This document shows, in pieces, positions 45,447 through 60,724 of a stretch of DNA of 64,000 nucleotides (positions are counted from its first letter, which is position 1; each line of letters starts with the position of its first letter). Below the pieces are notes generated by a model, which did not search any database, had not been told where the DNA came from, and worked only from the letters and a program-made list of their open reading frames with translations. The DNA comes from Gemmobacter sp. 24YEA27. GTDB taxonomy: Bacteria > Pseudomonadota > Alphaproteobacteria > Rhodobacterales > Rhodobacteraceae. A program made the position numbers and the translations under genes. The DNA lies in NCBI RefSeq assembly GCF_030052995.1, contig NZ_JASJPW010000001.1, positions 2,160,001 to 2,224,000 on the forward strand. The letters run 5' to 3'.

Positions 45447-45521
45447 GCCCCTATAGCACAGCGGTAGTGCAGCGGTTTTGTAAACCGAAGGTCGGGAGTT
45501 CAAATCTCTCTGGGGGCACCA
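45447..45521 (+). tRNA. tRNA-Thr (anticodon UGU)
   Basis: A 7-bp acceptor stem GCCCCTA/TGGGGGC, anticodon TGT in the loop TTTGTAA, T-loop TTCAAAT and an encoded CCA (45519-45521) are all present. The decayed prophage genes begin immediately downstream, so its 3' end is a likely phage attachment site. Confidence 0.95.
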
Positions 45522-45680
45522 TTACTACATTGAAAATTGTTTTATATCATAGCCTTAGATGGTGATGACTCGTTGTAGTCCACCCTTCGGCTTGCGCTTA
45601 ATTGATACACCCTGAAGCCGAAATAACCCGATTGTGATCGACTAGCCCCGACCGAAGCCGGGGCTAGGGCAGGGGGCGAG

Positions 45681-45827
45681 TCACCCCAGAACGCGGTAGA
45701 CGTGGCTGGTACTGCGGTTGAGATACCGTCCGATCTCCTGGAAGCTCGCGCCGCAGTCCCGCAGTTCGGCCATCTGCAAGCGCTCCTTCGCGGTGAGCAG
45801 GCGCCCGCGCCGGACAGCCCAACTCAT
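45681..45827 (-). CDS. 48-residue helix-turn-helix protein
   Basis: A small protein with RRGRLLTAKERLQMAELRD followed by a plain HTH (ASFQEIGRYLNRSTSHVYRVLG). This is the recognition-helix pattern of transposase/resolvase-type or phage small regulators. Its ATG overlaps the stop of the upstream 39-codon gene (ATGA), so they are co-translated. It is part of the prophage remnant. Confidence 0.6.
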   Translation of the reverse strand: MSWAVRRGRLLTAKERLQMAELRDCGASFQEIGRYLNRSTSHVYRVLG

Positions 45828-45943
45828 GCCCAGGGATCGATGTCTGCTGCGATCACCCCGGGCGGGATGATCTGGACGGGGCAGCGCACCGGGACGCCAT
45901 CGCGGGCGGCGACCTCGGCCCGGACCTTGTCTGAATAGGTCAT
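45824..45943 (-). CDS. 39-residue small phage-type protein
   Basis: Begins MTYSDKVRAEVAARDG and ends ADIDPWA. A strong ribosome-binding site (GGAGGGG) precedes the ATG at 45943, and its stop overlaps the HTH gene start by 4 bp. No family is recognised. The tight overlaps on both sides make it likely to be real. Confidence 0.5.
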   Translation of the reverse strand: MTYSDKVRAEVAARDGVPVRCPVQIIPPGVIAADIDPWA

Positions 45944-46090
45944 GCTTCACCCCTCCTGCGCCGTTCATTGAGAACTGCGCTTCGGATGGTCTATGGTCAC
46001 GGCCAAGAGCCATGCCGATCCTAGGATAGCTCATGCCGTGGCGACGGGCGATGTAGCAGACCAAGGCGCGCAGCCTGAAATTCCTGATAA
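45940..46090 (-). pseudogene. DnaA C-terminal-domain-like fragment cut by the IS element
   Basis: RLRALVCYIARRHGMSYPRIGMALGRDH resembles the DnaA domain IV HTH found in short phage regulators (split here: RLRALVCYIARRHG, then MSYPRIGMALGRDH). One base is missing after GRDH; restoring it gives STIRSAVLNERRRRGEA and a stop that overlaps the next start by ATGA. The 5' end is lost at the IS junction near 46090. It is a fragment and not the chromosomal dnaA. Confidence 0.55.
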
Positions 46091-46138
46091 TCCTCCCCGT
46101 TTTAACGGGGTGCAGAAGTAGACTTCAGGCAGCCATCT

Positions 46139-47020
46139 TCAGTTGTCTCGGGCGGGTGTAATGCCGCCGATGCCCATGTTGGGGCGCTCATTTTTGTAAG
46201 TCCATAGCCAGTCGGTTGCGATCTGTTGCGCCTCCTCGATGGTTTCAAAGATGTGAAGGTCCAGCCATTCATGCCGGACCGTTCTGTTGTATCGTTCTAC
46301 AAAGGCGTTCTGTTGGGTATGAGGAGGGTCAGAAAACAGTCCAGTGGACTGTTTTCCCGACGAATGTCCGGGCTGGATGTGGTTGAGGGCAATGCCCTGC
46401 TTTTCGGCCCAGATCATCAGCGTGGAACTGATGTATTCCGGACCATTGTCGACCCTTATTGCCAGAGGTTTGCCGCGCCACTCGATGATCTGGTTCAGGG
46501 ACCGGACCACCCGCTCAGCCGGGAGCGAGAAGTCGACCTCGATGCCCAGGCCCTCGCGGTTGAAGTCGTCCAGCACATTTAGCAGTCGGAATTGACGGCC
46601 ATCAGCCAATCGATCAGCCATGAACCGAAGGTCCTCGCAGCGAATTCCATTGACCAGACCGTGTTCGGCGCCTCAGGGACGCTGAGTTCTTCAGGCTTGT
46701 CGCGTTTGATCCGCGTGCGCAGCTTGATCCGCAGGTTCAGTTCCAGCTCGCAGTAGATCCTATGGACGCGCTTATGGCTCCACGGGTGCCCCTGGACATT
46801 GCGCATGTGCAGAAAGCATAGCCCAAAGCCCCAGGTCCGGTGCGCCTTGGTCAGCCCTTCCAACAGGTCTGCGATGAACTCGTTCTCGGCATCGCGCTTT
46901 GGGCTGTAGCGAAAACAGGTCTCGGCTCGACCCAAATGCCCGACAGGCCAGCGCGATGCTGCCCGCCTTTGTCGCCACAGCCTTCTCGGCCAGCTCCTGG
47001 CGTTGAGCTGGCCGTGTCAT
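46139..47020 (-). pseudogene. IS3-family transposase OrfB (broken)
   Basis: Three frames together give a DDE integrase-type transposase: TRPAQRQELAEKAVATKAGS (46772-47020), CFRYSPKRDAENEF...RTWGFGLCFLHMRN (46579-46935) and [20 protein letters not shown]...VDNGPEYIS...[17 protein letters not shown] (46139-46621). Between SMEF and MADRL there are about 20 extra bases. An in-frame insertion containing a palindrome (46332-46356) splits HIQPG from QQNAF. It is not functional as given. Confidence 0.8.
46332..46356. repeat. 25-bp near-perfect palindrome inside the transposase gene
   Basis: GAAAACAGTCCA and TGGACTGTTTTC are perfect 12-bp arms around a single G. The palindrome lies within about 50 bases that interrupt the conserved HIQPG/QQNAF junction of OrfB, so it looks like a small insertion. 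Confidence 0.75.
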
Positions 47021-47282
47021 TTTTTTCCAAAGGCTTCCCTGAGCAGTTCAGCCTGCATGCCGAAGGCTCGGCGAACATGCGCTTCAGCCGCCGGTTCTCG
47101 TCCTCAAGGGACTTCATCTGGCTCATCATCGACGCATCCATGCCGCCATACTTCGAGCGCCACTTGTAGAAGCTCGCCGTACTGATCCCATGCTCACGGC
47201 AAAGCTCGGGCACGGCCATACCGCTCTCGGCCTGACGAAGCACGGCCATGATCTGCGGTTCCGTGAAACGGCTCTTTCTCAT
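47017..47282 (-). pseudogene. IS3-family OrfA (broken)
   Basis: The N-terminal HTH is intact: MRKSRFTEPQIMAVLRQAE, ELCREHGISTASFYKWRSKYG, then the leucine-zipper-like LEDENRRLKRMF. After AEPS the frame is lost; one added base would give MQAELLREAFGKK and a stop at 47017, the normal OrfA end. Confidence 0.8.
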
Positions 47283-47432
47283 TCGAATTTCCTCAGCTCA
47301 CGGCTCACGAGAAATTTCTACTTATTCAGCCCCTTGACCATCGAGAGGATTACCAGAGGATTGCGGCGATCAGGGTCGCCCAAATAGCGGCCCCGCCGAG
47401 GATCGACGGGACCAGCCACCAGCAGGGGTCAC

Positions 47433-48991
47433 TTAGACGAACACTGTCGGCACACCGCCGTTTGCATCCCGAGCCATATTGTACCGGTCCAGCACCCGTT
47501 GAAGGTCACGGTTGGCCAGCTGCAAGACGCTGTGTTCTCCCGGCGCTTTTAGATCCGCCATCCAGCCGCGATACAGGCGCTCTTTTGCTGCCTGGCGCTG
47601 CGCCGTTGACATGGGGGCGCCGTTCCAGGCCTGCGGGATCCCCCACTGGGCCTGAGCGCCCAAAAAATTGACTGCGATCCCAGCCCCGACCGCCCCAGTT
47701 GCCACAACGGCAAAGCTCAGATCTATTGCCGGCCTGACGCTGGCACCAGCGGAGCCATTCGAAAGCCGGTTCCGTCCGCATTTTGCCAGTAGAGCATCTG
47801 GCTGACCTTGCCATAGTGTTGAGCATCCGGGGTTACCACGAGGGAAACGGCAGCGCCCAAAGACGTCTGCCGCGCACCCCACAGATTTCCGCTGATCTGC
47901 GCGATGGTCAGCGGATCGGGCGCAGACACATATCCGTTGTCGGCAGATGAGGACGCGAACATACCGTGGCACGCGGAACCGGCGTTCCAATTCGCAGCTT
48001 CCGGCATTCGCCAGTAGCCACAGACCGCGAAAAAGTCGTTTGCAGCACCATAGATTGTCGCCCACGGCGCGGCCGACGCCCTGACCCCCGCATCGTTGAA
48101 GTTATGGGCGAGAAGTCGAAGCCCCCGCCTGCATTAAGCTGGCCCGGCGCCCGCGCCGGGAACCCGGGTCTGCAAATGGTCCGACCGGAGCAGGTTGCGC
48201 ACTTCCTGCGCATTAACCGGCGCGCCGCCCGGATAAGACCAGTCAAAGTCGAGATCGAAAACGGTCAGTATCCGTCCGCCGCCGTCCTCAATGAGTTTAT
48301 CCAGGCTGGGCAGGGCTTTTGCCGGGCCGCTGCTGACAGTGGGCAATTGAATGGCGGTGGTGGAGTAATTCGTCCTGTGAGCCTCACAGACCAGGGGAAA
48401 GCAGGTGGGTGACAGCATCCGCAAGGGCGAAGCCGCCGAACAACGGCGCGGGGTGAATGCCGTCAGAACGCATACAGGGGCGAGCAGAATTGCCGCTTGC
48501 ATAATAGGAAGGCGCCGCCCCCCAGAAATACTGGTGATCGAGGTGAGCGGCGCCGATTGCCACGGCAACCTCAAGAGCGGCGCGCGTGTACTGAGCCATG
48601 GGGTAGGCATTTGCCGGCTTCTGATCTTCCGGCGGCGAGGTAATCAGGAGGTCAACGAGAGGCACGGCGGCCCTCGCTCGCGTAAGGATCGTGGTGAGAT
48701 TTCCGGCAAATGTGGAGGGGGTGAAAGCTGCGCCCTGATCGTTTACTGATCGCCGGCGATCAGCAGGCCAGGAGCGAAAGTCGCGAGAGACGTCTGCCAG
48801 CGCGCCGCGTTGACGCTGGACCAGGTGTTTGTCGTCGAGCCACTGGAGCCCAGCTTGTGAAAGCAGACACCCCGTGCGGCCGACTGGAAGTCGACCCCGG
48901 CTAGGATTACGATTACTATTGCATAGCGGGGCCGCGATGAAGGCGAAGGGGATCTGCGCTGGCCGTCGGGGTTTTCAGCGGCGTTTACCAC
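47433..48991 (-). pseudogene. prophage tail-fibre-like gene with SGNH-hydrolase part, multiply frameshifted and 5'-truncated
   Basis: Reading across frames from right to left gives FATFAPGLLIAGDQ-type sequence, then SVNDQGAAFTP (SGNH block with Asn-Asp), ARAAVPLVDLLITSPP, and SDGIHPAPLFGGFALADAV (block with catalytic Asp-x-x-His). It continues as LPSLDKLIEDGGGRILTVF, NDAGVRASAAPWATIYGAAN, SGNLWGARQTSLGAAVSLV, and a C-terminus ending GGVPTVFV at 47433. At least four frame changes are needed. The 5' end is lost at the rsgA junction. Downstream (47350-47432) a short frame encodes a hydrophobic stretch VPSILGGAAIWATLIAAILW, perhaps a holin-like fragment. Confidence 0.55.
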
Positions 48992-50898: not shown

Positions 50899-51338
50899 TC
50901 CGGGGCGTCACAATCAAACGACATCCGGAAATGCCTCAGGCGCAATCATCGTTTTCGCAGGGCCGGCTTCCTGCCTGAGATCACAGCACCGTCGTCAGGG
51001 AGCCGCGCCGTGGCCTCGTGCCGGCTCTTAACCAGCTTTATATGTTGCCGTGTTTGCTGAGATGCCGGCACTTTCAGAAATTCAGAAATTCAGAAATTCA
51101 GAAATTCAGTGATTCAGAAAGGTCGAAATGGATCTTCTGCGAGAACATCGTCATTTCAGACCTCTGAGACAGGCTTGTGCCCTGTCTCCTGCCAGGATGG
51201 GGCGACGACCTCTCCCATTTCCCTTGCGGCGCGCTCTGCCTCGTCAGAGCTGTCCTGAGCTTTCTGTGCCTGATACCTTCGGCGGGGCCTGTCGCCCTGA
51301 TCTCGCGCAAGATTGACGCTCGGACTGGAGCTGCAGGT
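50899..51338. other. 440-bp gap containing a tandem octamer array
   Basis: No gene is recognised. The stretch holds the TTCAGAAA array (51073-51120) and leads into the left direct repeat of the guaA island. Confidence 0.5.
51073..51120. repeat. tandem octamer array TTCAGAAA
   Basis: Four perfect head-to-tail copies of TTCAGAAA occupy 51073-51104. One changed copy (TTCAGTGA) and one more perfect copy reach 51120. There is no spacer, so it is a simple tandem array. Confidence 0.9.
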
Positions 51339-51560
51339 ACCCGTCACAAGCTCTCTGAGCCATGACGGTATGTGCAATCCTGCGATGTCAGAAGGCGCCC
51401 CATACTGCCAGCTCCGCCGTCAATCGCGAGGTTTGCCCAGCGATTGACGGCGAAAGATGCCTGAACGAAAACTTTTTATTTTCAGCGCTTTAATATGGGG
51501 TATCGGCGGTCATCGGCGGTGTTTGGACAGGCCCGAATCATTCCCACTCAATTGTCCGCC
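51339..51560. repeat. left direct repeat of the guaA island with displaced guaA 3' end
   Basis: About 220 bp align with 58969-59185 in the same orientation at roughly four in five identical positions, by eye. Shared blocks include CCGTCACAAGCTCTCT, ATGACGGTAT, AGCTCCGCCGTC, TTTATTTTCAG and ATTCGG. On the minus strand 51538-51555 reads codons for T-I-E-W-E-stop, the GuaA C-terminus of many bacteria, so this is an attachment-site scar. The native guaA in the window ends T-I-E-L-E. Confidence 0.85.
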
Positions 51561-51933
51561 CTATGGGCTAACCAGTTGAAAAACAAAGCGAAAAAATATT
51601 TTTGGGAGGTCGTATGCCGCCGCATCCACCGTCATAAAGCTATCCCTCTTGAAATCATTGGGTTTTTTCGACTGATTGGCTCGAAAAAAAATTCGCCATC
51701 TATCGCCGGTGACGCTCGCCGCTTCAGTTCGCAGAACAGACAGCGAATGTCCTCGCAAGAGCTACATCGTACCGGCTTGCGGTTCTATTTTCCATCTCAC
51801 TCGGAAGATTCCATCGTGAGTCCAGCCAGACTTCGCCTTCATCGGGGTGAGCGCAGAGCCAGTACACGCTTACGACCATCACTGGGCCTCGCCGACCCAG
51901 TAGCCGCTCCATCAATAACATTCGGATTGCACA

Positions 51934-51952
51934 CTAACACTATCAATGTTAG
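51934..51952. promoter_or_regulatory. inverted repeat upstream of the winged-helix gene
   Basis: CTAACA-N7-TGTTAG, with the right arm ending 12 bases before the ATG at 51964. Its position suits autoregulation of the downstream operon, as in antitoxin-type regulators. The surrounding 51570-51720 is unusually AT-rich for the window and probably carries the promoter. Confidence 0.5.
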
Positions 51953-51963
51953 CGTTCGCCACC

Positions 51964-52971
51964 ATGTTATCAAAAGACCTCTCACGCTCGGACGGTCCCT
52001 TTCCTGATGCGCTAGAACGCTACCTGGGAGAGCTTCTTCATGAACGCATTGATGTCCGCCCATTCGAAGCCACGCGCAGCTTGCCGGCATTTATCGGACG
52101 CATCTACGCGCTCTACGAGGCTCGCATTCTTGGACGCCAATGCGTCATCGTTGCCAAGCTCGACGGCACAGGCACTCCCGCCGACATCGCTAAGCATATC
52201 GACATAGTCCGCAATGCCGCCCATGCGACGGTGGCGTTTGCCACCATGACCATCAGTGCGCACAACCGGTCGCGCCTCATCGGTCAAGGTGTTCCTTTTA
52301 TAGTTCCCGGCAACCAGCTCTATATACCGGATCTGGCGATCGATCTGCGCGAGCATTTCCGTGCACCGCGCAACCGACAGGCGGACGGCCTGTCTCCTGC
52401 CGCCCAAACCGTCCTTTTCCATCACATCCTGCACCTCGACCGGAGCATGACAACGCCATCCCTCCTGGCTGACCGCCTGCATTACTCGGCGATGTCGATC
52501 GGCCGAGCGTTCGACGATCTGGTTGCCACCGGCCTCGCCGAAACCGTCCGGCACGGAAAAGAGAGGCGGATTCATTTCAAGGCAGAAGGGCGGCAGCTCC
52601 TGGAGGATGCAACGCCACATCTCCGCAGTCCGGTTCGATCCCAGAAATTCGTGCGCGGAAGCGCCTTCGGCGCGCACCTGAAGCTGGCCGGGGAAACGGC
52701 ACTTTCCCGCCTAACGGAACTGGCTGGCCCCCGTATCGACACGTTCGCCGTCGCCGCCAGCGACTGGAAAGCGATTTCGCAAACTGCGGACCTCGCCGAA
52801 ACCGACCGTGACGACGCCAACTACATCATCGAGACATGGTCCTACGATCCGGCCGCCTTGTCCGACACCGACACCGTGGACGTCCTGTCCCTGTACGCAC
52901 AATTCCGGGATCATCGCGACGAGCGCGTCGCCATGGCCGCGGAACGGCTTTTGGAGAACCTGCCTTGGTAG
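51964..52971 (+). CDS. winged-helix protein, first gene of a three-gene module
   Basis: A 335-residue protein. Residues ~140-210 form a MarR-like winged helix (LFHHILHLDRSMTTPSLLADRL, YSAMSIGRAFDDLVATGLAE, HGKERRIHFK). The N-terminal ~130 residues are a mixed alpha/beta domain I do not recognise. An in-frame ATG at 51946 lies inside the inverted repeat, so 51964 is preferred. Its stop overlaps the start of the nucleotidyltransferase gene by 7 bp. Pairing of a DNA-binding protein with an AbiEii-like gene suggests the antitoxin half of a type IV-like toxin-antitoxin system; this is inference. Confidence 0.75.
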   Translation: MLSKDLSRSDGPFPDALERYLGELLHERIDVRPFEATRSLPAFIGRIYALYEARILGRQCVIVAKLDGTGTPADIAKHIDIVRNAAHATVAFATMTISAHNRSRLIGQGVPFIVPGNQLYIPDLAIDLREHFRAPRNRQADGLSPAAQTVLFHHILHLDRSMTTPSLLADRLHYSAMSIGRAFDDLVATGLAETVRHGKERRIHFKAEGRQLLEDATPHLRSPVRSQKFVRGSAFGAHLKLAGETALSRLTELAGPRIDTFAVAASDWKAISQTADLAETDRDDANYIIETWSYDPAALSDTDTVDVLSLYAQFRDHRDERVAMAAERLLENLPW

Positions 52972-53729
52972 CTGGCATCGATAAATTTCAGAAATACTTC
53001 GCTGGCCATGAGGACCACTACGCCATCATCGGCGGCGCGGCATGCGACCTCCTGTTCGATGAAGCCGGTCTCGATTTCAGGGCCACCAAGGACATTGATA
53101 TGGTGCTCTGCGTTGAGGTGGTCGATGCCGCCTTCGGCACCGCTTTCAAAGCGTTTCTGGATGCCGGCGGCTATCAGGCACGCGAACGCAGCACCGGCGA
53201 AAAGGAATTCTACCGCTTCCACAAGCCGTCGGACCAGAGCGTCCCCTTCATGATCGAGCTGTTTTCCCGCAAGCCGGGCACCCTCGACCTTCCGGAAAAT
53301 GCGGAACTCACACCCATCCCGGTTGAGGAAGACATCGTCAGCCTCTCAGCCATTCTGCTCGACGACGGATATTATGAAGCGTTGCAGTCCGCGAAGCGGA
53401 AGATCGAGGGCGTAACCGTCATCGATGAAACACTTCTCATCCCTTTCAAAGCGCGGGCATTCCTGGATCTGTCCGCACGGGCCGAAGCCGGGGAAAAGAT
53501 CGACAGCAAAAACATCAAGAAGCACCGCAATGATGTGCTTCGCCTGACCCAGCTTCTGCCCGGCGATGCCTCGATCACCTTGCCCGATCAAATTCTCGAC
53601 GACATGCGACGCTTCCTTGATCTGGCAGCGGCTGACGACACTCTCGATCCAAAAGCGCTCAACGTGCCGTTTACCCGCGATGAGGCGATTGCCCTTCTCA
53701 GGTCAGCTTACAAGCTGGCCGATGCATGA
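52965..53729 (+). CDS. AbiEii-like nucleotidyltransferase
   Basis: A 254-residue protein with the minimal nucleotidyltransferase signature: Gly23-Gly24 in YAIIGGAACDLL, then Asp43-x-Asp45 in ATKDIDMVL, and a later acidic position in PFMIELF. AbiEii/AbiGii toxins of this fold transfer nucleotides to RNA. The start is TTG 52965, supported by GGAG ten bases upstream and by the overlap with the preceding stop; the first internal ATG would remove the GG motif. The end overlaps the next gene by ATGA. Confidence 0.75.
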   Translation: MVAGIDKFQKYFAGHEDHYAIIGGAACDLLFDEAGLDFRATKDIDMVLCVEVVDAAFGTAFKAFLDAGGYQARERSTGEKEFYRFHKPSDQSVPFMIELFSRKPGTLDLPENAELTPIPVEEDIVSLSAILLDDGYYEALQSAKRKIEGVTVIDETLLIPFKARAFLDLSARAEAGEKIDSKNIKKHRNDVLRLTQLLPGDASITLPDQILDDMRRFLDLAAADDTLDPKALNVPFTRDEAIALLRSAYKLADA

Positions 53730-54292
53730 GCCGAACCTTCATCTACAGCTTTACTCCGTCATCGCTGGACCCAGCCCCCGGCGCGACCATTGCGTTGGAC
53801 GTCTCGGAGATCGAGGACGCCGGCATTCGCGAGGTGCTTCAAACGCCGGGCGCCGCTTACGGCGCCTGGTCGATCCTCGATGCGCTGCTGTCGCCGACCG
53901 GCATAGGCACGCCTTTCATCTTCAAACAGCCGCTTGGGCAAGCTCGTGAAGTAAAGGTCGCGTTGTCGGGTCTGTTCGGCAGGTTCGTCGCTCGGGCCTA
54001 TCTCGAACGCTACTTCGACCTGTCCATCTTCGCGCATCTCGGTAATCGAGTGGTCGATCTCGAACGTCGTAAACGCGCCAAGATCGTGCGCCTCGCACGA
54101 GGCGACCTCCCCGACTGGATCGCATGCAAATCCGATCTGACTTCGCTTACGATCGCAGAGGCCAAGGGTTGCCACGACCCAGGCGGAACAGCGAAGACGC
54201 GCGGCTTCAAACCCTCATTACCGATCTCGCTGGCGATCCCGCCCGGACCGTCCGTCAACTCCAGACTCAGGAAACCCGCATCAATGCAGTGA
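53726..54292 (+). pseudogene. truncated PD-(D/E)XK-like protein, third gene of the module
   Basis: About 155 genuine residues precede a junction near 54186, after which the frame continues as unrelated sequence to 54292. The end of the genuine part reads LPDWIAC...LTIAEAKG, with Pro129-Asp130 and Glu145-x-Lys147 spaced as in PD-(D/E)XK nucleases. The ATGA overlap with the nucleotidyltransferase shows it was part of the operon. The 3' half, and with it the rest of the fold, has been removed by deletion. The nuclease assignment is tentative. Confidence 0.5.
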
Positions 54293-54440
54293 TCGAACAG
54301 ATCGGCAAGTTGACCGCCGCCGCCTCTGAGCAGAACCGGACCGCGCTCCGTGAGGCTCATGGGCGTCTTGCAACTGCGCGAGCGGCGGCATTGGCTGCAT
54401 CCGACGATCTTTTCGCCGCGGAACCTCTGCCGGACATCGG
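54186..54440 (+). pseudogene. internal fragment of an unidentified coiled-coil gene
   Basis: In the frame beginning SEDARLQTLITDLAGDPA the sequence continues helically (RINAVIEQIGKLTAAASEQN, REAHGRLATARAAALAASDDL) and stops making sense near 54440, where ParB sequence begins in another frame. Both ends are junctions. I do not recognise the family. Confidence 0.45.
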
Positions 54441-54458
54441 CTCGGATATCCGCATCCG

Positions 54459-55634
54459 GTGGAGCTTTCCGAGGAAGACGCCACGGCCTACGACGCCGCG
54501 CAGGACGAGCTTGAGCGCCTGAACGCGGAGTGGGAGGACGCCGACACCGACCTTCCGGACGAGGTGGATGCGCGCCTTGCGGAGCTTGAAGGCGAGATTG
54601 AGCGGATCGACGCCAAGCGCCACGCCTTCGATCCCGATGACATCGCGCGCGGCGGCGTGTTCGTCGTCGTCGCCCATAATGGCGATGTTCGGATCGAGCG
54701 CGGTTTCATCCGCGCCGAGGACGAGGCCCCGGAGCCGGAACCGGAGGAAACCAAGGGCGGCGAAACCGTCATCGACGGCGTGCGCGTCAACGGTGACGGC
54801 GAAATCCTCGACAGCGAGGACGGCGAAGGCGACGACCTTCCCGAAACCGAGCAGGAGCCGGAAGAGGACGCCGGGGATGCGGGCAAGCCGCTGCCCGACT
54901 CGCTCATTCGCGACCTGACCGCGCATCGCACCCTTGGCCTGCGTCTCGCCCTTGGCGAGCAACCAGACATGGCGTTGATCGCCGTGGTCCATGCGCTCGC
55001 CGCGCAGACCTACTATCGGGGCGGCAGCACGGCCCATTGCCTCGAAATCAGCCCGACCAGCAATTACCTCGCCGCCCACGCCGACGGCATCGAGGACACG
55101 GCGGCGGCGAAGATGCTGGCAGATCGCCATGCCGGATGGGCGGCGGACATGCCGCGCGACATGGCGGACCTCTGGGACTTCGTTGCCGGTCTGGACCATG
55201 CGAGCCTCATGGCCTTGCTCGCGCATTGCGCCTCGCTGACCGTCAATGCGGTGAAGCTGCCTTGGGAGAGCAGCAAGCGCCGCGCCCATGAGACGGCGGA
55301 TAAGCTGGCGACGGCGGTGGCGCTCGACATGGCGGCGCACTGGACCGCGACCGCGCGCAGCTATCTCGGGCGTGTCACCATAGCCCACATCCTCGCCGCC
55401 GTGCGCGATGCCCTTGGCGACGAGGCAGCGGAGCGGATCGCGGACAAGAAGAAGGTGGAGATGGCTACCGCTGCCGCGCAGCTTCTGGCCGGAACCGGCT
55501 GGCTCCCGCCCGTGCTGCGCACCGCGCGCCCCGCATGGCTCGACCAGCAGGCCGAGAGCTTCGCCCTCGATACCGTCGAGCCCGCCCCCTCGCAGGAAGC
55601 CCATGATGACCATTTCGCTATCGCAGCGGAATGA
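54459..55634 (+). pseudogene. ParB/RepB-type partition protein, C-terminal part only
   Basis: Residues begin at VELSEEDATAYDAAQDEL and run for about 390 codons: an acidic linker (EPEPEETKGGE, EDGEGDDLPETEQEPEEDAG) and the large C-terminal domain (LPDSLIRDLTAHRTLGLRLAL, NAVKLPWESSKRRAHETADK, LPPVLRTARPAWLDQQAE). This matches the tail of the long ParB proteins of alphaproteobacterial ICEs. The N-terminal ParB nuclease-like and HTH domains are missing, cut at about 54440. No proper start is present. Confidence 0.75.
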
Positions 55635-55765
55635 GGAAGGCAGGCCGGGGGCGCGCAAGCGGCCCCGGCTTTCCTCGCGTCCGAAAAAATCGCGGGCCGC
55701 GCAGTCGCGCGGCCCGATCACCTCGACCGTCGCCATGGTCGCCATCACCGTGAAGGAGGAGAACC

Positions 55766-56848
55766 ATGGTTGCCGTGATGCTGATGAGCGTCGTGCTGAT
55801 CGCCGGGCTTTGCGTCCTGGCCTATACGCTCGCCGTCTATGCCTTGCCGTTCATGCTCGGCGTCACCGCCGCGCAGTTCGCCTATCATACCGGCGCGGGC
55901 TTCATCGGGGCGGGCCTTGTCGGCTTCGTCGCCGCCGTCGCCGCCTTCGGCGTTCTCGCGCTGTTGTTCGACACGCTGCGCTCACCGATCCTGTCCGCGC
56001 AGAATGCCGGCCAGCCGGTCGTCTCGCCCGTGGTGCCGACACCCGGCGTCGACGAGGCCGAGCAGCGCCGCCGCGCAGAGGAGGAAGCCGCACGCCTCAG
56101 CACCGTGTTCTTCCAATCGAGGCAGGGATCGACTGCGGCTACACCGGGCGCCATGCCCGGCCTTACAGGCTTCGATCCCGCCAGCGCCGCCACAGGGCAA
56201 CCGACCGCGCAGGACCGGCAGCTTGCCTTCCTCAACGTCGCGGCCGACCGGCGCACGGTCACGCCGGATCGCGTGACGCCGCCAGCTTCGCCTTTCGTGC
56301 TTCAGGCAGGCGCAGTCATCTCGGCGGCGCTCATCACGGGCATTCGCTCCGATCTTCCCGGCCAGATCACCGCGCAGGTCACGGAGAACATCTATGATAG
56401 CCCGACGGGCAGCATTCTGCTCGTGCCGCAGGGGACGCGGATCATCGGCCAGTATGACAACAACGTGCAGTTCGGCCAGCGCCGCGTGCTGCTCGGCTGG
56501 AGCCGGCTCATCATGCCGAACGGACGCTCGATCGTTCTCGAGCGCCAGCCGGGCGCCGATACGCAGGGCTATGCCGGTCTGGAGGATGGCGTTGATTACC
56601 ACTGGTGGGATCTCGCCAAGGCCGCCGCGCTGTCGACCTTGCTCGGCGTCGGCGCGGAACTCGCCACCGACGACAATGATCGCCTGATCCGCGCCATCCG
56701 CGACGGTGCTCAGGACCCGGTCAATCAGGCCGGTCAACAGATCGTCCAGCGCCAGTTACAGGTTGCCCCGACACTGACCATCCGGCCGGGTTTCCCGGTG
56801 CGCGTCATCGTCACCAAGGATTTGGTGCTCGAACCCTACAGGAGCTGA
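55766..56848 (+). CDS. chimeric ORF: small membrane protein fused to TrbI/VirB10
   Basis: A 360-residue ORF with GGAGGAG before the ATG. Residues 1-74 are three hydrophobic helices (LMSVVLIAGLCVLAYTLAVY, PFMLGVTAAQFAYHTGAG, GLVGFVAAVAAFGVLALLF) ending LRSPIL, like the small membrane protein that follows parB in ICEs. From about residue 75 the sequence is TrbI: AEQRRRAEEEAARLS, QAGAVISAALITGIRSDLPGQ, YDSPTGSILLVPQGTRIIGQYD, RLIMPNGRSIVLERQPG, and FPVRVIVTKDLVL. TrbI normally carries one N-terminal helix. The simplest reading is an in-frame deletion fusion that removed the rest of the trb operon. Confidence 0.75.
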   Translation: MVAVMLMSVVLIAGLCVLAYTLAVYALPFMLGVTAAQFAYHTGAGFIGAGLVGFVAAVAAFGVLALLFDTLRSPILSAQNAGQPVVSPVVPTPGVDEAEQRRRAEEEAARLSTVFFQSRQGSTAATPGAMPGLTGFDPASAATGQPTAQDRQLAFLNVAADRRTVTPDRVTPPASPFVLQAGAVISAALITGIRSDLPGQITAQVTENIYDSPTGSILLVPQGTRIIGQYDNNVQFGQRRVLLGWSRLIMPNGRSIVLERQPGADTQGYAGLEDGVDYHWWDLAKAAALSTLLGVGAELATDDNDRLIRAIRDGAQDPVNQAGQQIVQRQLQVAPTLTIRPGFPVRVIVTKDLVLEPYRS

Positions 56849-56850
56849 CC

Positions 56851-57066
56851 ATGACCAAGCTGAAACTCGGCCCCATCGCGGACGACAAGCCCGTCAAGAT
56901 CACGGTGGAACTGCCGGCGCAGCTCCATCGCGACCTCATAGACTACGGCCGCCTGCTCGCGGCGGGCGCTACGCCGATCGAGCCTGCCAAGCTGATCGTG
57001 CCGATGCTCGAACGCTTCATCAGCACCGACCGCGGCTTCGCCAAGGCCCGGCGCACGACGGCCTGA
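56851..57066 (+). CDS. DUF2274 protein of the trb operon
   Basis: A 71-residue protein (KLKLGPIADDKPVKITVELPA, then LHRDLIDYGRLLA and KLIVPMLERFI) matching the DUF2274 family that follows trbI in ICE conjugation operons. It starts 3 bases after the trbI stop. Its presence identifies the operon end and the ICE origin of the region. The function is unknown. Confidence 0.85.
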   Translation: MTKLKLGPIADDKPVKITVELPAQLHRDLIDYGRLLAAGATPIEPAKLIVPMLERFISTDRGFAKARRTTA

Positions 57067-57330
57067 CCGCGCCGATCGGCAGAAGGTATCGACGATGCCT
57101 TCCAAGCCAATCCGCAGTCGGTCTAATCACCGCATCTCAAGCGTGGAGTCAGCTTTGCCGGGGTGCCGCGCGCGAGCTAGCGCGAATGCGGCACGCTACC
57201 GGCCCCCGATCTTTCGCCATGGTTCGCCAGATGCCGGTAATACAGCCAAGTCGCTGATCTGGCCGCGTTAAGAAACGAGGTTTGGCATGAACACATTGAA
57301 TGTCGAGATCGCAGGCGGCGGGGGTCAATC

Positions 57331-57603
57331 ATGAGCCAATCGCCGTCCCCTCTCAGCAAGCGCACCATCCGCAGGCATCAGCTTCGCGAGATTGTCCCCC
57401 TGGCCGACACCACCATCTACGACATGGAGCAGCGCGGCGAGTTTCCTCAGCGCTTCTACCTGACCTCTCGGACCGTGGTGTGGGATCTCGGCGAAGTGGA
57501 GGCTTGGCTCGAAGAACGGCGCCGAGCCTCCAAGGCGAAAACCGCCAAGCGTGCGCCGTCACCCGACGTCACGCTCAGGAAAGCCCGTCCGGTCAAAGGC
57601 TAG
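57331..57603 (+). CDS. AlpA-family DNA-binding regulator
   Basis: A 90-residue MerR-like HTH protein: LREIVPLADTTIYDMEQRGEFPQRF and WDLGEVEAWLEERR are the AlpA signature. AlpA proteins activate integrase genes or act as excisionases. It converges on the integrase gene, overlapping by 11 bp, the usual position of the recombination directionality gene in such elements. A 15-codon ORF (MNTLNVEIAGGGGQS) overlaps its start by ATGA; it may be a leader or the tail of a deleted gene. The 264-bp gap before it holds nothing else recognised. Confidence 0.85.
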   Translation: MSQSPSPLSKRTIRRHQLREIVPLADTTIYDMEQRGEFPQRFYLTSRTVVWDLGEVEAWLEERRRASKAKTAKRAPSPDVTLRKARPVKG

Positions 57604-58849
57604 GTTCTGGGGCCAGAAGATCCATGGAGGCCGGATAGAGCGTCGGGGTATATTTCTGACCGCCGACCCATGCGTCGATCAGATTCCCCCATTCCTGCAT
57701 CATGTGGCGGCGTTGGTGCTCATACTCGGCCTTGTTATAGACGCCGCGCGAAGAACGCCCGTCCTCGTGCGCCAGACACTTCTCAATCCAGTCGCTGTTG
57801 AAGCCCAGCTCGTTGAGCAGCGTCGAGCCCGTGCGGCGAAGATCATGCACAGTGAACGGCTCCAGCGGCAATCCCGCCTTCTTGGCCTGCACGACGACCG
57901 CCGTGGTGACGCGGTTGAAGGTCGCACGCGACATAGGCGCATCCGCGTCGTAGCGCGATGGCAGCAGGTAGCGCGAATTGCCGGCGCAGGTCTTGAGCGC
58001 GACGAGGATGTCGAGCGACTGTTCGCACAGATAGACGTTGTGCGGCTTGGAGCGCTTCATGCGCTCCTTCGGGATCGACCACACGGCATTCTCGAAGTCG
58101 ACCTCATCCCACACCGCGTCCTGCAGCTCGCTCTTGCGGACCATGGTGAGCAGGATCAGCTTCAGGCCGAGCCGGATCGTCGGCAGCGTCGCCACATGCT
58201 CAAGCTGGCCGAGCATGACCCGGATTTCGGCGGGCGAGAGCGAACGGTCCTTCGGAACGAACGTCGCGATCGAGGCAGGCCCGACCTCTTCGGCGGGGTT
58301 CGACACCTTCTCGCCGTGCAACTTGGCGAATGCGAACACCAGCTTCACGATGTCACGGACATGGACGGCCGTGGCCGGCGCTCCCCGCTTTTTCACCTTA
58401 TCGCACATCGCCCGGAGATCCTCGGGCGTGATTTCCGTCAGCAGCCGGTTGCGGAACGTCGGCAGGATGTCGCGCTCGTAGATCGAGCGCCGCATTGCGC
58501 GGGTGCTCTCCGCCATACGGTGCTCTTGGAGCCAGCGTTCGCCGAACTCGCCGAAGCTCTTCGCTTCCTTAATGCGGCGCTTCTCGCGCTGCTTCTCCTG
58601 GGCGGGCGACCGCCCTTCCTGAATCGAGCGCTGCGCGTCGATCAACTTCTCCCGCGCACGGGCCAGAGAAAGGCCCGCCGGCCCGTATCGGCCGAGGGTC
58701 TAGGTCTCGCGTCGACCGTGCATACGGTAGTCATAGCGGAATACCACGGCACCCGACGGGTTCACCACGACATACATACCGTCACGGTCAGAGACCTTGT
58801 ATAATTTGTCCTTTGGTTTCAGCGACTTGATCGCGGCATCAGTAAGCAT
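57593..58849 (-). pseudogene. P4-type tyrosine integrase with an in-frame amber stop
   Basis: From ATG 58849 (MLTDAAIKSLKPKDKLYKV, preceded by GGAGGG) the N-terminal DUF4102 arm-binding domain reads normally to GRRET. Codon 50 is then TAG (58700-58702) where related integrases have Leu in ETLTLGRYG. The frame continues correctly for 368 codons: core-binding FGEFGERWLQEHR, catalytic Arg in MVRKSEL, HDLRRTGSTLL (His-x-x-Arg) and the tyrosine region GVYNKAEY. A TTG at 58645 could restart translation but would lack the arm-binding domain. The integrase is probably inactive. Confidence 0.88.
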
Positions 58850-58895
58850 CGGACCCTCCGATTTCGTTCAAGAAACGTCAGAGAGCCCCTAAAAA

Positions 58896-59000
58896 TACCG
58901 TCAGGCCAAAATGGACCAATCCTGACGGCGAATTTTCCTTTATTCTCAATGGAATAAGGTCAAAAAAATACCGTCACAAGCTCTCTAGGCCATGACGGTA
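58896..59000. promoter_or_regulatory. two inverted TACCGTCA pairs between int and guaA
   Basis: TACCGTCAGG (58896-58905) faces CCTGACGGC (58921-58929), and TACCGTCA (58969-58976) faces TGACGGTA (58993-59000). Only the second pair is repeated in the left direct repeat (51341-51370). Repeated inverted sites next to an integrase are candidates for arm-type integrase or AlpA binding. Confidence 0.55.
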
Positions 59001-59185
59001 TATGCAATTCCGCGATGTCACAAGATGCCCCATATCGTCAGCTCCGCCGTCGATCGCGAGGCTTTCTCGGCGATTGATGGCGAAAGGTGCCGGGAGGAAA
59101 ATTATTTATTTTCAGTGTGTTATGGAGAGGTGTCGGCGGCAATCGGCGGCGTTTGGGTAGGTCCGAATTATTCCAGCTCGATGGT
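58969..59185. repeat. right direct repeat of the guaA island
   Basis: Partner of 51339-51560. It includes the last codons of guaA (stop at 59168-59170) and the 200 bp downstream of it. The conserved core around the stop reads GGAATAATTCGGACC on the minus strand, against GGAATGATTCGGGCC in the left copy. The integrase gene lies just inside, as expected for an attachment site. Confidence 0.85.
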
Positions 59186-60724
59186 GCCCGGCGGTTTAGA
59201 GGTCAGGTCGTAGAACACCCGGTTCACGCCTTTCACCTCATTGATGATCCGCGTCATGGTTTCGCCGAGGAATTCATGGGTGAAGGGGTATGTGTCGGCT
59301 GTCATGCCATCGACAGAGGTCACCGCGCGGATCGAGACCGCGAAATCATAGGTGCGCCCGTCGCCCATCACGCCGACGGTTTTCATCGGCAGGATCGCCG
59401 CGAAAGCCTGCCAGATCTCGTCATAGAGGCCGTGTTTGCGGATCTGGTCGATATAGACCGCATCTGCCTCGCGCAGGATGGCGAGTTTCTCACGGGTGAT
59501 CTCGCCGGGGCAGCGGATCGCGAGGCCCGGCCCGGGGAAGGGGTGACGCCCGATGAAAGACGCTGGCAGGCCAAGCTCGCGGCCAAGGGCACGGACCTCG
59601 TCCTTGAAGAGCTCGCGCAGCGGCTCCACCAGTTTCAGGCCCATCTTTTCCGGCAGGCCACCGACATTATGGTGCGATTTGATCGTGACCGAAGGCCCGC
59701 CGCTGAAGGAGACAGATTCAATCACATCGGGGTAAAGCGTGCCCTGGGCGAGGAATTCGGCACCCTCGATCTGGTTCGCGTATTTCTGGAACACGTCGAT
59801 GAAGAGCTTGCCGATGGTCTTGCGTTTGACTTCCGGGTCCGAGACGCCTTCGAGGGCACCGAGGAAGAGATCCGATTCATCGGCCGCGATCAGTTTGATC
59901 TTGTAATTGTCGCGGAACATTTTGACGACTTCCGCCGCCTCGTTCTTCCTGAGAAGCCCGTGATCAACAAAGACGCAGGTCAGCTGGTCACCGATCGCCT
60001 CATGGATCAGGATGGCGGCGACAGAGCTGTCAACGCCGCCCGACAACCCGCAGATGACCTGTTTGTCGCCGACCTGTTCGCGGATCTTCGCGATGGCTTC
60101 CTCGCGGTAGCCGGCCATGGTCCAGTCGCCGGTGAAGCCCGCAAGCCGCACGAAATTCTCGTAAAGCTTTGCACCCTTGGGGGTGTGATGCACCTCGGGA
60201 TGGAACTGCACGGCATAGAATTGGCGCGACGGATCGGCGGTGATCGCAAAAGGCGCATTGGGCGAGGTGCCATAGACCTCAAAGCCCGGAGCGATCTTTG
60301 ACACATGGTCGCCATGGCTCATCCAGACCTGTTCGTCACCGGCCTGGAACCAGCCGTCGAGGATCTCGAGATCGGCGCCTTTGCGGGTCACAAAGGCACG
60401 GCCGAATTCGGCGGTGCCATGACCCGATTCAACCAGCCCGCCCAGCTGCTGCATCATGGTCTGCTGGCCGTAGCAGATGCCAAGAACCGGCACGCCGGCG
60501 GTCCACAGGCTTTCCGGCGCGCGGGGGCTGCCCTCACGGGTGACCGAATCCGGCCCGCCCGACAGGATCACGGCCTGGGGCGCGAATTCTGCCAGAAAAG
60601 CGTCTGAGACGCGCTGATAGGGGTGGATTTCGCAATAGACATTCAGCTCGCGCAGGCGCCGCGCGATCAGCTGGGTGACTTGCGAACCGAAATCAATGAT
60701 GAGGAGGCGTTGGGGCTGGGTCAT
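59168..60724 (-). CDS. guaA: GMP synthase (glutamine-hydrolysing)
   Basis: A 518-residue enzyme converting XMP to GMP. The N-terminal class I glutaminase has nucleophile Cys84 (GICYGQQ) and the His/Glu pair in QFHPEVHHT. The ATP pyrophosphatase domain has the PP-loop [10 protein letters not shown], and the C-terminal dimerisation domain ends KPPGTIELE. The last codons overlap the right repeat of the island, so the present 3' end may be supplied by the integrated element. Confidence 0.97.

Follow-up and report, generated by a model that had tools for sequence, protein, structure and literature searches.

Two related elements very probably entered the 3' end of guaA in succession in Gemmobacter sp. 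24YEA27, the inner one persisting as an apparently disabled remnant of an integrative and conjugative element

Integrative and conjugative elements (ICEs) can persist as remnants flanked by attachment (att) sites, known as cis-mobilizable elements (CIMEs), and can accumulate through site-specific accretion, the successive insertion of elements at one site. Among the described systems, Mesorhizobium ICEs use guaA as an integration site (PMC8627217), and their rdfG-intG pair is convergent, with RdfG described as a member of the MerR superfamily (PMC5882170). The island GIsul2 also occupies the guaA 3' end and is described with a named core, GAGTGGGA, and with an integrase whose excision and integration were demonstrated experimentally (PMC9376610). 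These reports agree with an earlier note on the present DNA, which had called the guaA 3' end a known island site. Here, we analyzed a 64,000-nucleotide window (the whole stretch of DNA under study) from Gemmobacter sp. 24YEA27, in which a degenerate island adjoins guaA. We conclude that two related guaA elements very probably entered this site serially: the outer one is nearly gone, and the inner one appears to be a recently disabled, CIME-like remnant of a trb-type ICE. Serial insertion at guaA is a known kind of event, and no paper describing this locus was found, judged by title or the start of the abstract.

The locus resembles the Mesorhizobium guaA ICEs, including the IntG/RdfG module of the tripartite ICEs, in its site, in having a tyrosine integrase gene and a small winged-helix gene that converge, and in its conjugative origin, a likeness judged by site and gene arrangement (PMC8627217, PMC5882170). 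It differs in that the window copy lacks transfer genes, its integrase carries a nonsense codon, and the small gene is assigned to AlpA by Pfam, whereas RdfG is described as MerR-like. GIsul2 shares the guaA 3' end, an integrase with alpA, and the core GAGTGGGA, but it carries other cargo, and the host-side core in the window is GAGCTGGA (PMC9376610). The window element adjoins guaA and has the convergent alpA gene of a guaA-type integrase. With CIMEs and accreted ICEs, the locus has in common an att-flanked remnant without mobility of its own and serial insertion at one site; the outer element is here down to ~200 bp, and the immobility of the inner one is read from its sequence.

The framework of the locus is an imperfect direct repeat. 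The earlier note had reported copies of ~220 bp around a ~7.6-kb segment, and the alignment bears this out: 215 nt align without gaps (51341-51555 versus 58971-59185) at 80% identity and a spacing of 7630 nt. A search of the genome itself recovers the second copy at E 2.4e-50 and no third copy at E <= 0.001. The features at the two edges are as follows.

51005..51340, no strand: stretch between the chromosome shared with the related genome G008 (match ends at ~51005) and the older element end; holds a run of TTCAGAAA-type 8-bp repeats at ~51065-51128, beside the older remnant
51341..51538, minus: integrase-proximal end of what was probably an older guaA element, left as a remnant outside the island; 80% identical to the right copy and 78-83% to the Devosia, Stappia, Rhizobiaceae metagenome-assembled genome (MAG) and Camelimonas ends; arranged as on contig C36 of the related genome G001
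51539..51556, minus: distal att core of the island, ACAATTGAGTGGGAATGA, coding TIEWE-stop; contains GAGTGGGA and aligns with the distal cores of Devosia and G001
58971..59167, minus: integrase-proximal end of the island (right repeat copy); 91% identical to the Rhizobiaceae MAG end and 85% to that of Devosia
59168..59185, minus: proximal att core by core alignment, the 3' end of guaA, ACCATCGAGCTGGAATAA, coding TIELE-stop
59168..60724, minus: guaA, intact; NCBIfam NF000848, E 9.3e-229

Read in the direction of guaA, both copies begin with a short core closed by a stop codon and continue for ~200 bp. The guaA stop codon lies within the right copy, as the earlier note had said. In the right copy, the ~200 bp fall within the island, beside the integrase gene; in the left copy, they fall beyond it, toward the chromosome from the left core. 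Tyrosine recombinases duplicate no more than the short core when they integrate an element, and a single insertion is expected to leave host sequence at that outer position. Since the outer ~200 bp of the left copy are homologous to an element end and lie beyond the core, they are not the product of a single insertion. Only ~18 bp at one edge of each ~220-bp copy are att core, and the remainder most likely represents the integrase-proximal ends of two different elements of one family. The earlier claim that the ~220-bp repeats are the two attachment scars fails on this point, for the ~200 bp on the left lie outside the core.

The cores themselves indicate which letters came from the element. 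They are unlike at two central positions, GAGCTGGA on the host side versus GAGTGGGA. The right junction reads ...ACCATCGAGCTGGAAT and then AATTCGG, the left ...ACAATTGAGTGGGAAT and then GATTCGGG, so that the switch from host-like to element letters falls inside GGAAT. We surveyed GuaA ends at 30 loci: the C-terminus is TIELE in 13/13 genomes of the host genus, and the 17 loci from other genera comprise 14 TIEWE, one TIEME, one TIEWD and one TIELE. The host-genus core is GAGCTGGA in nine of the 13 genomes and a close variant in the others, in contrast to the GAGTGGGA of the elements. The left copy does carry T-I-E-W-E-stop on the minus strand, as the earlier note had seen. Because the host genus ends in TIELE throughout and the distal cores of Devosia and G001 are TIEWE, what the note called an orphan GuaA C-terminus is best taken for an att core belonging to the element, and not for host codons that were displaced.

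Between the two cores, the island retains a short set of genes in the following arrangement.

54447..55634, plus: parB-like gene, 3' part only; DNA identity of 88-90% to Devosia and Camelimonas starts at 54447
55766..56848, plus: chimeric open reading frame (ORF), a small membrane protein (residues 1 to ~74) joined to the C-terminal part of TrbI; junction at ~55977-55986
56851..57066, plus: DUF2274 gene; PF10038, E 2.6e-32
57331..57603, plus: AlpA-family gene, convergent with the integrase gene; PF05930, E 3.4e-11
57593..58849, minus: tyrosine integrase gene with an in-frame TAG at codon 50 of 418; open full-length copies occur in five other records

A Pfam scan of eight island ORFs matched TrbI (E 3.7e-64), DUF2274, AlpA and phage integrase (E 2.4e-20), confirming four of the five gene identities in the earlier note. 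The fifth, ParB, rests on relationship: the ORF has no Pfam match and is 84-87% identical to parts of longer Devosia and Camelimonas ORFs, the former with an HTH_ParB domain. The note had also suggested looking for intact ICEs with the same integrase and had named the int-alpA-trbI-parB set; related elements with this set and DUF2274 exist at guaA in Devosia enhydra and Bosea sp. Root483D1. The Bosea proteins are 80% (integrase), 67% (AlpA), 74% (DUF2274), 66% (TrbI) and 64% (ParB) identical to those of the window. Ten scanned ORFs of the Bosea element include a DUF3363 protein (relaxase profile just under the cut-off), a type IV secretion coupling protein, and T2SSE/TrbB-, VirB3-, TrbE-, TrbL- and TrbI-type proteins; no distal core was found in the 80 kb read. 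The window island, in contrast, is without the DUF3363, coupling, TrbB-, TrbE- and TrbL-type proteins. When, as a control, the 13 ORFs of the Bosea transfer region were compared with 51300-59200, 11 gave nothing at E <= 1e-3, and the two that did match, TrbI and ParB, did so only in their C-terminal parts. The relaxase, the coupling protein and most pore-type ORFs of the Bosea set are thus without a match, and the Pfam scan agrees. The island therefore lacks the relaxase, coupling protein and type IV pore of a trb-type ICE while keeping att cores and a tyrosine integrase at a specific locus, the integrase frame being broken. This corroborates the earlier description of a degenerate ICE that has lost nearly all its transfer genes.

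The deletions can be traced at their edges. DNA similarity to Devosia is limited to 54447-55435 and 55985-60206, left repeat aside, and Bosea matches start at residue 296 of ParB and residue 126 of TrbI. The N-terminal part of parB has been deleted, and a junction at ~54430-54450 joins broken cargo to what remains. In Camelimonas fluminis, one alignment spans 54447-55841, where the DNA after parB continues into the start of the membrane-protein gene. In the window, this gene is fused in frame to trbI at ~55977-55986. Its relatives P0122 and P0127 diverge after a common RSPIL, the trbI relatives read GGPIL there, and CCGATCCT is shared between the junction and two of four trbI relatives displayed, which suggests a short-repeat deletion, as seen from the trbI side of the junction. 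Residues 1-75 of the chimeric ORF match seven proteins at E <= 0.001 among 2358 candidates of similar length, and only the window's own has a TrbI domain. In Camelimonas, this interval has lost another segment, up to the ORF that precedes trbI. P0127, a protein from a public record, begins with the N-terminal part of a similar ParB and ends with the C-terminal part of this small membrane protein; here the interval seems to have undergone yet another deletion, independent of the others.

The integrase frame (58849..57593) is interrupted before the core-binding and catalytic domains. Compared with Devosia over 418 codons, 333 are identical, 81 synonymous and four different, including the stop, and the protein is 99% identical. 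Because 81 of the 85 codon differences are synonymous, inactivation would be recent and would follow long purifying selection. Across 390 genomes of the order, the integrase occurs in eight at E <= 1e-60, with guaA adjoining in all eight and alpA in four (short loci, E <= 1e-4). A survey of 295 genomes of the family, one per genus, found it in three at E <= 1e-70. Two of the eight order genomes (G382, G352) carry a full-length open integrase, refuting the idea that this family is broken in every host of the order. The other six show TAG in a full-length match (G504 and G000, the latter being the present genome), TGA (G471) or a partial match (G544, G102, G035), with contig ends a possible cause for some. 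Outside these eight, the G001 frame stops at codon 17, with a contig end close to where its match runs out. The 13 host-genus genomes yielded no integrase of the family that was full length and open at E <= 1e-40. Intact integrases from other orders were reached through a TrbI search and do not make a fair comparison. The AlpA gene is, by analogy with RdfG, probably a recombination directionality factor.

Two further records touch this integrase family. On the 1.46-Mb replicon pFER4 of Paracoccus ferrooxidans, guaA is followed by an integrase matching codons 1-330, an annotated IS21 transposase and trbK-trbJ-trbE, by its gene content another disrupted guaA ICE. Among the plasmid matches listed, those in Escherichia, Morganella and Acinetobacter are at 57%; one Acinetobacter baumannii record (NZ_CP076808.1), far from the alphaproteobacterial hosts, has an integrase 89% identical, with an AlpA gene beside it.

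The earlier note had called the segment immobilized, and the nonsense codon together with the absence of matches to the relaxase-, coupling-protein- and most pore-type ORFs of the fuller Bosea relative supports this. With att cores at both ends, a nonsense integrase and, as judged from sequence, no working conjugation set, the island is CIME-like. It is improbable that the segment still moves, using an integrase that is shortened by initiation at a later start codon or completed by reading through the TAG, with a helper supplying transfer genes. The strong conservation of the rest of the integrase, the two cores and the good Pfam match of AlpA would fit such residual mobility, but the stop precedes both the core-binding and the catalytic domain, the cores differ at two central positions (GAGCTGGA, GAGTGGGA), and a search of the genome at E <= 1e-40 found this integrase family only once.

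Comparison with other guaA ends bears on the number of insertions. The Devosia order is guaA, proximal end, integrase, alpA, DUF2274, trbI, parB, cargo and then a distal core, ACAATCGAGTGGGAATGA, at contig position 688028, a boundary that gives an element of ~41.9 kb. The sequence beyond this core is unlike the proximal end, which occurs just once in the entire Devosia genome (E 1.3e-78, with the next match at E 1.1). The ~200-bp repeat is thus not part of the distal end, whose core stands bare. In G001, contig C46 carries guaA, the proximal end and a disrupted integrase, and contig C36 carries a distal core followed by another proximal end, part of another integrase gene, ~430 nt and then the rsgA chromosome. 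A second element end thus lies beyond the first element's distal core both in the window (51341-51538) and in G001, the arrangement of site-specific accretion. G008 has guaA, a decayed proximal end, integrase codons 1-136 and then chromosome matching the window up to 51005; G004 has the proximal end and no recognized integrase. At the guaA ends of G005 and G011 are a contig end and a 28-nt match. A Camelimonas proximal end (locus L049, position 14700) has no guaA-like sequence after it on its contig, reflecting either another target or an assembly edge. The comparison of flanks proposed in the earlier note thus upholds a mobile element at guaA and speaks against the att pair of one island, given the bare distal core of Devosia and the second proximal end of G001.

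A table of pairwise identities among 13 proximal ends addresses the origin of the two copies. The right copy is 91% identical to the Rhizobiaceae MAG end, 89% to Stappia, and 85% to Devosia and to Camelimonas, and only 78% to the left copy, whose own best match is Camelimonas at 83%. Four other elements thus have ends nearer to the right copy than the left copy is, and separate elements are the most likely source of the two. That a single ICE left both as attL and attR, through duplication of a long att region that later diverged, is accordingly a poor prospect: two directly oriented copies do flank mobile genes, each with a guaA-like end, but recombinases of this class are generally known to duplicate the short core alone, Devosia and G001 contradict the scheme, and copies of recent origin should be more than 80% identical, given that the integrase protein is 99% that of Devosia. 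Least probable of all is a segmental duplication within this genome that copied the proximal end to the far side, for although the copies are 80% alike in the same orientation, the identities above place the right one closer to foreign ends, and G001 has a comparable second end.

Several observations weigh against serial insertion of two elements. Devosia is taken as the model of a single insertion, with its outer flank assumed to be chromosome, and the tandem state of G001 is put together from two sides on separate contigs. No proximal end was found after guaA in G006, G009, G007 and G010, and no proximal-end match in G012, G003 and G002, weak negatives because the same DNA comparison missed the diverged end in G008. 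Likewise, a DNA search of the 295 family genomes returned only the genome itself, and this end diverges too fast for that to prove absence. The left ends of this genome and G001 are only 61% alike and may stem from old insertions that were separate events. Serial insertion also does not account for the 336 bp at 51005-51340, between the shared chromosome and the older end. Finally, the older element's distal core was not found in the window, where a pattern allowing <=2 mismatches finds the two known sites only (1.17 expected by chance).

Taken together, serial insertion would have proceeded as follows. An older integrative element would have entered the guaA 3' end and later been cut down to its proximal end at 51341-51538. 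A younger trb-type ICE, with a convergent int-alpA pair acting like IntG/RdfG, would then have recombined into the rebuilt guaA site, the strands being exchanged within GGAAT, at a point that separates the core mismatch from the stop codon. In this way, guaA would have kept its TIELE codons, and the element's TIEWE core would have ended up on the far side, abutting the older remnant. Deletions would subsequently have stripped nearly all the transfer genes, one of them fusing the membrane-protein gene to trbI, and a nonsense codon would have stopped the integrase, leaving a CIME-like remnant with a two-gene cargo operon.

The cargo occupies the left part of the island.

51964..52971, plus: cargo gene 1, MarR-like winged helix, 335 aa; PF12802 at E 1.3e-5, under the curated cut-off; paired with gene 2 on two Shinella plasmids
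52965..53729, plus: cargo gene 2, nucleotidyltransferase-like, of a large family; the start is probably TTG, giving the same 7-nt overlap with gene 1 that the annotated Shinella pair has
53726..54446, plus: broken cargo, the 5' part of a third ORF followed, in a different frame, by a fragment with weak resemblance to PADLOC PDC-S06 (E 6.8e-7)

The two-gene operon looks intact, and the pair occurs with the same 7-nt overlap on both Shinella plasmids. Gene 2 has at least 5554 relatives at E <= 0.001 in a capped set of 7999 scored candidates, and one of the 120 listed is named an AbiEii toxin by its source. It has no Pfam match, its best profile matches are to unrelated proteins (E 0.16 and 0.78), and its poor model (mean predicted local distance difference test score 61) has no PDB fold match at E <= 0.001. 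That the pair is a toxin-antitoxin system as in AbiE is a guess. Among 25 of the 29 ORFs scanned in the Devosia element, TrbI, CagX/TrbG, VirB8/TrbF, TrbL and TrbK are present, and a coupling protein, a relaxase and TrbB/TrbE were not found; parB is separated from the trb genes by a transposase gene. Its cargo comprises very large helicase, SNF2-type and Eco57I-type methylase genes (1715, 928 and 1522 aa), an OLD-like and UvrD pair and an AbiEi/AbiEii pair. The helicases and methylase presumably resemble DISARM. The Bosea element has ORFs of 1715, 928 and 1610 aa in similar order, compared by length alone. Elements at guaA may commonly carry defense genes.

Elsewhere in the window, a 3.4-kb stretch (45523-48949) lies directly 3' of tRNA-Thr (45447-45521), where G008 has only ~0.3 kb and G001 1.0 kb. 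The stretch has the look of a further insertion, here at the 3' end of a tRNA gene, and contains an ORF (46851-47282) that we take to be IS3-like.

The locus illustrates that serial insertion can be told from att duplication by the side of the core on which the homology lies. It is ordinary in kind and unusually well dated, a well-ordered example of ICE decay in which an older scrap, a younger element, deletions and a recent nonsense codon succeed one another. Within this bacterial order, guaA was the sole location at which the integrase was found. A further idea, which we regard as doubtful, is that guaA in the host genus acts as a one-way trap: because the host core is unlike the elements' GAGTGGGA, entry by exchange beyond the mismatch would leave two unlike cores per insertion, excision would be poor, and elements would pile up and decay. 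If true, this would explain the lack of a full-length open integrase in the genus, although counting gives it no support, the integrase being disrupted also in five of the seven other hosts of the order that carry it. The mismatch between the core of the elements and that of the host genus nonetheless makes it testable whether a small change in a host gene can turn an integration site into a trap.

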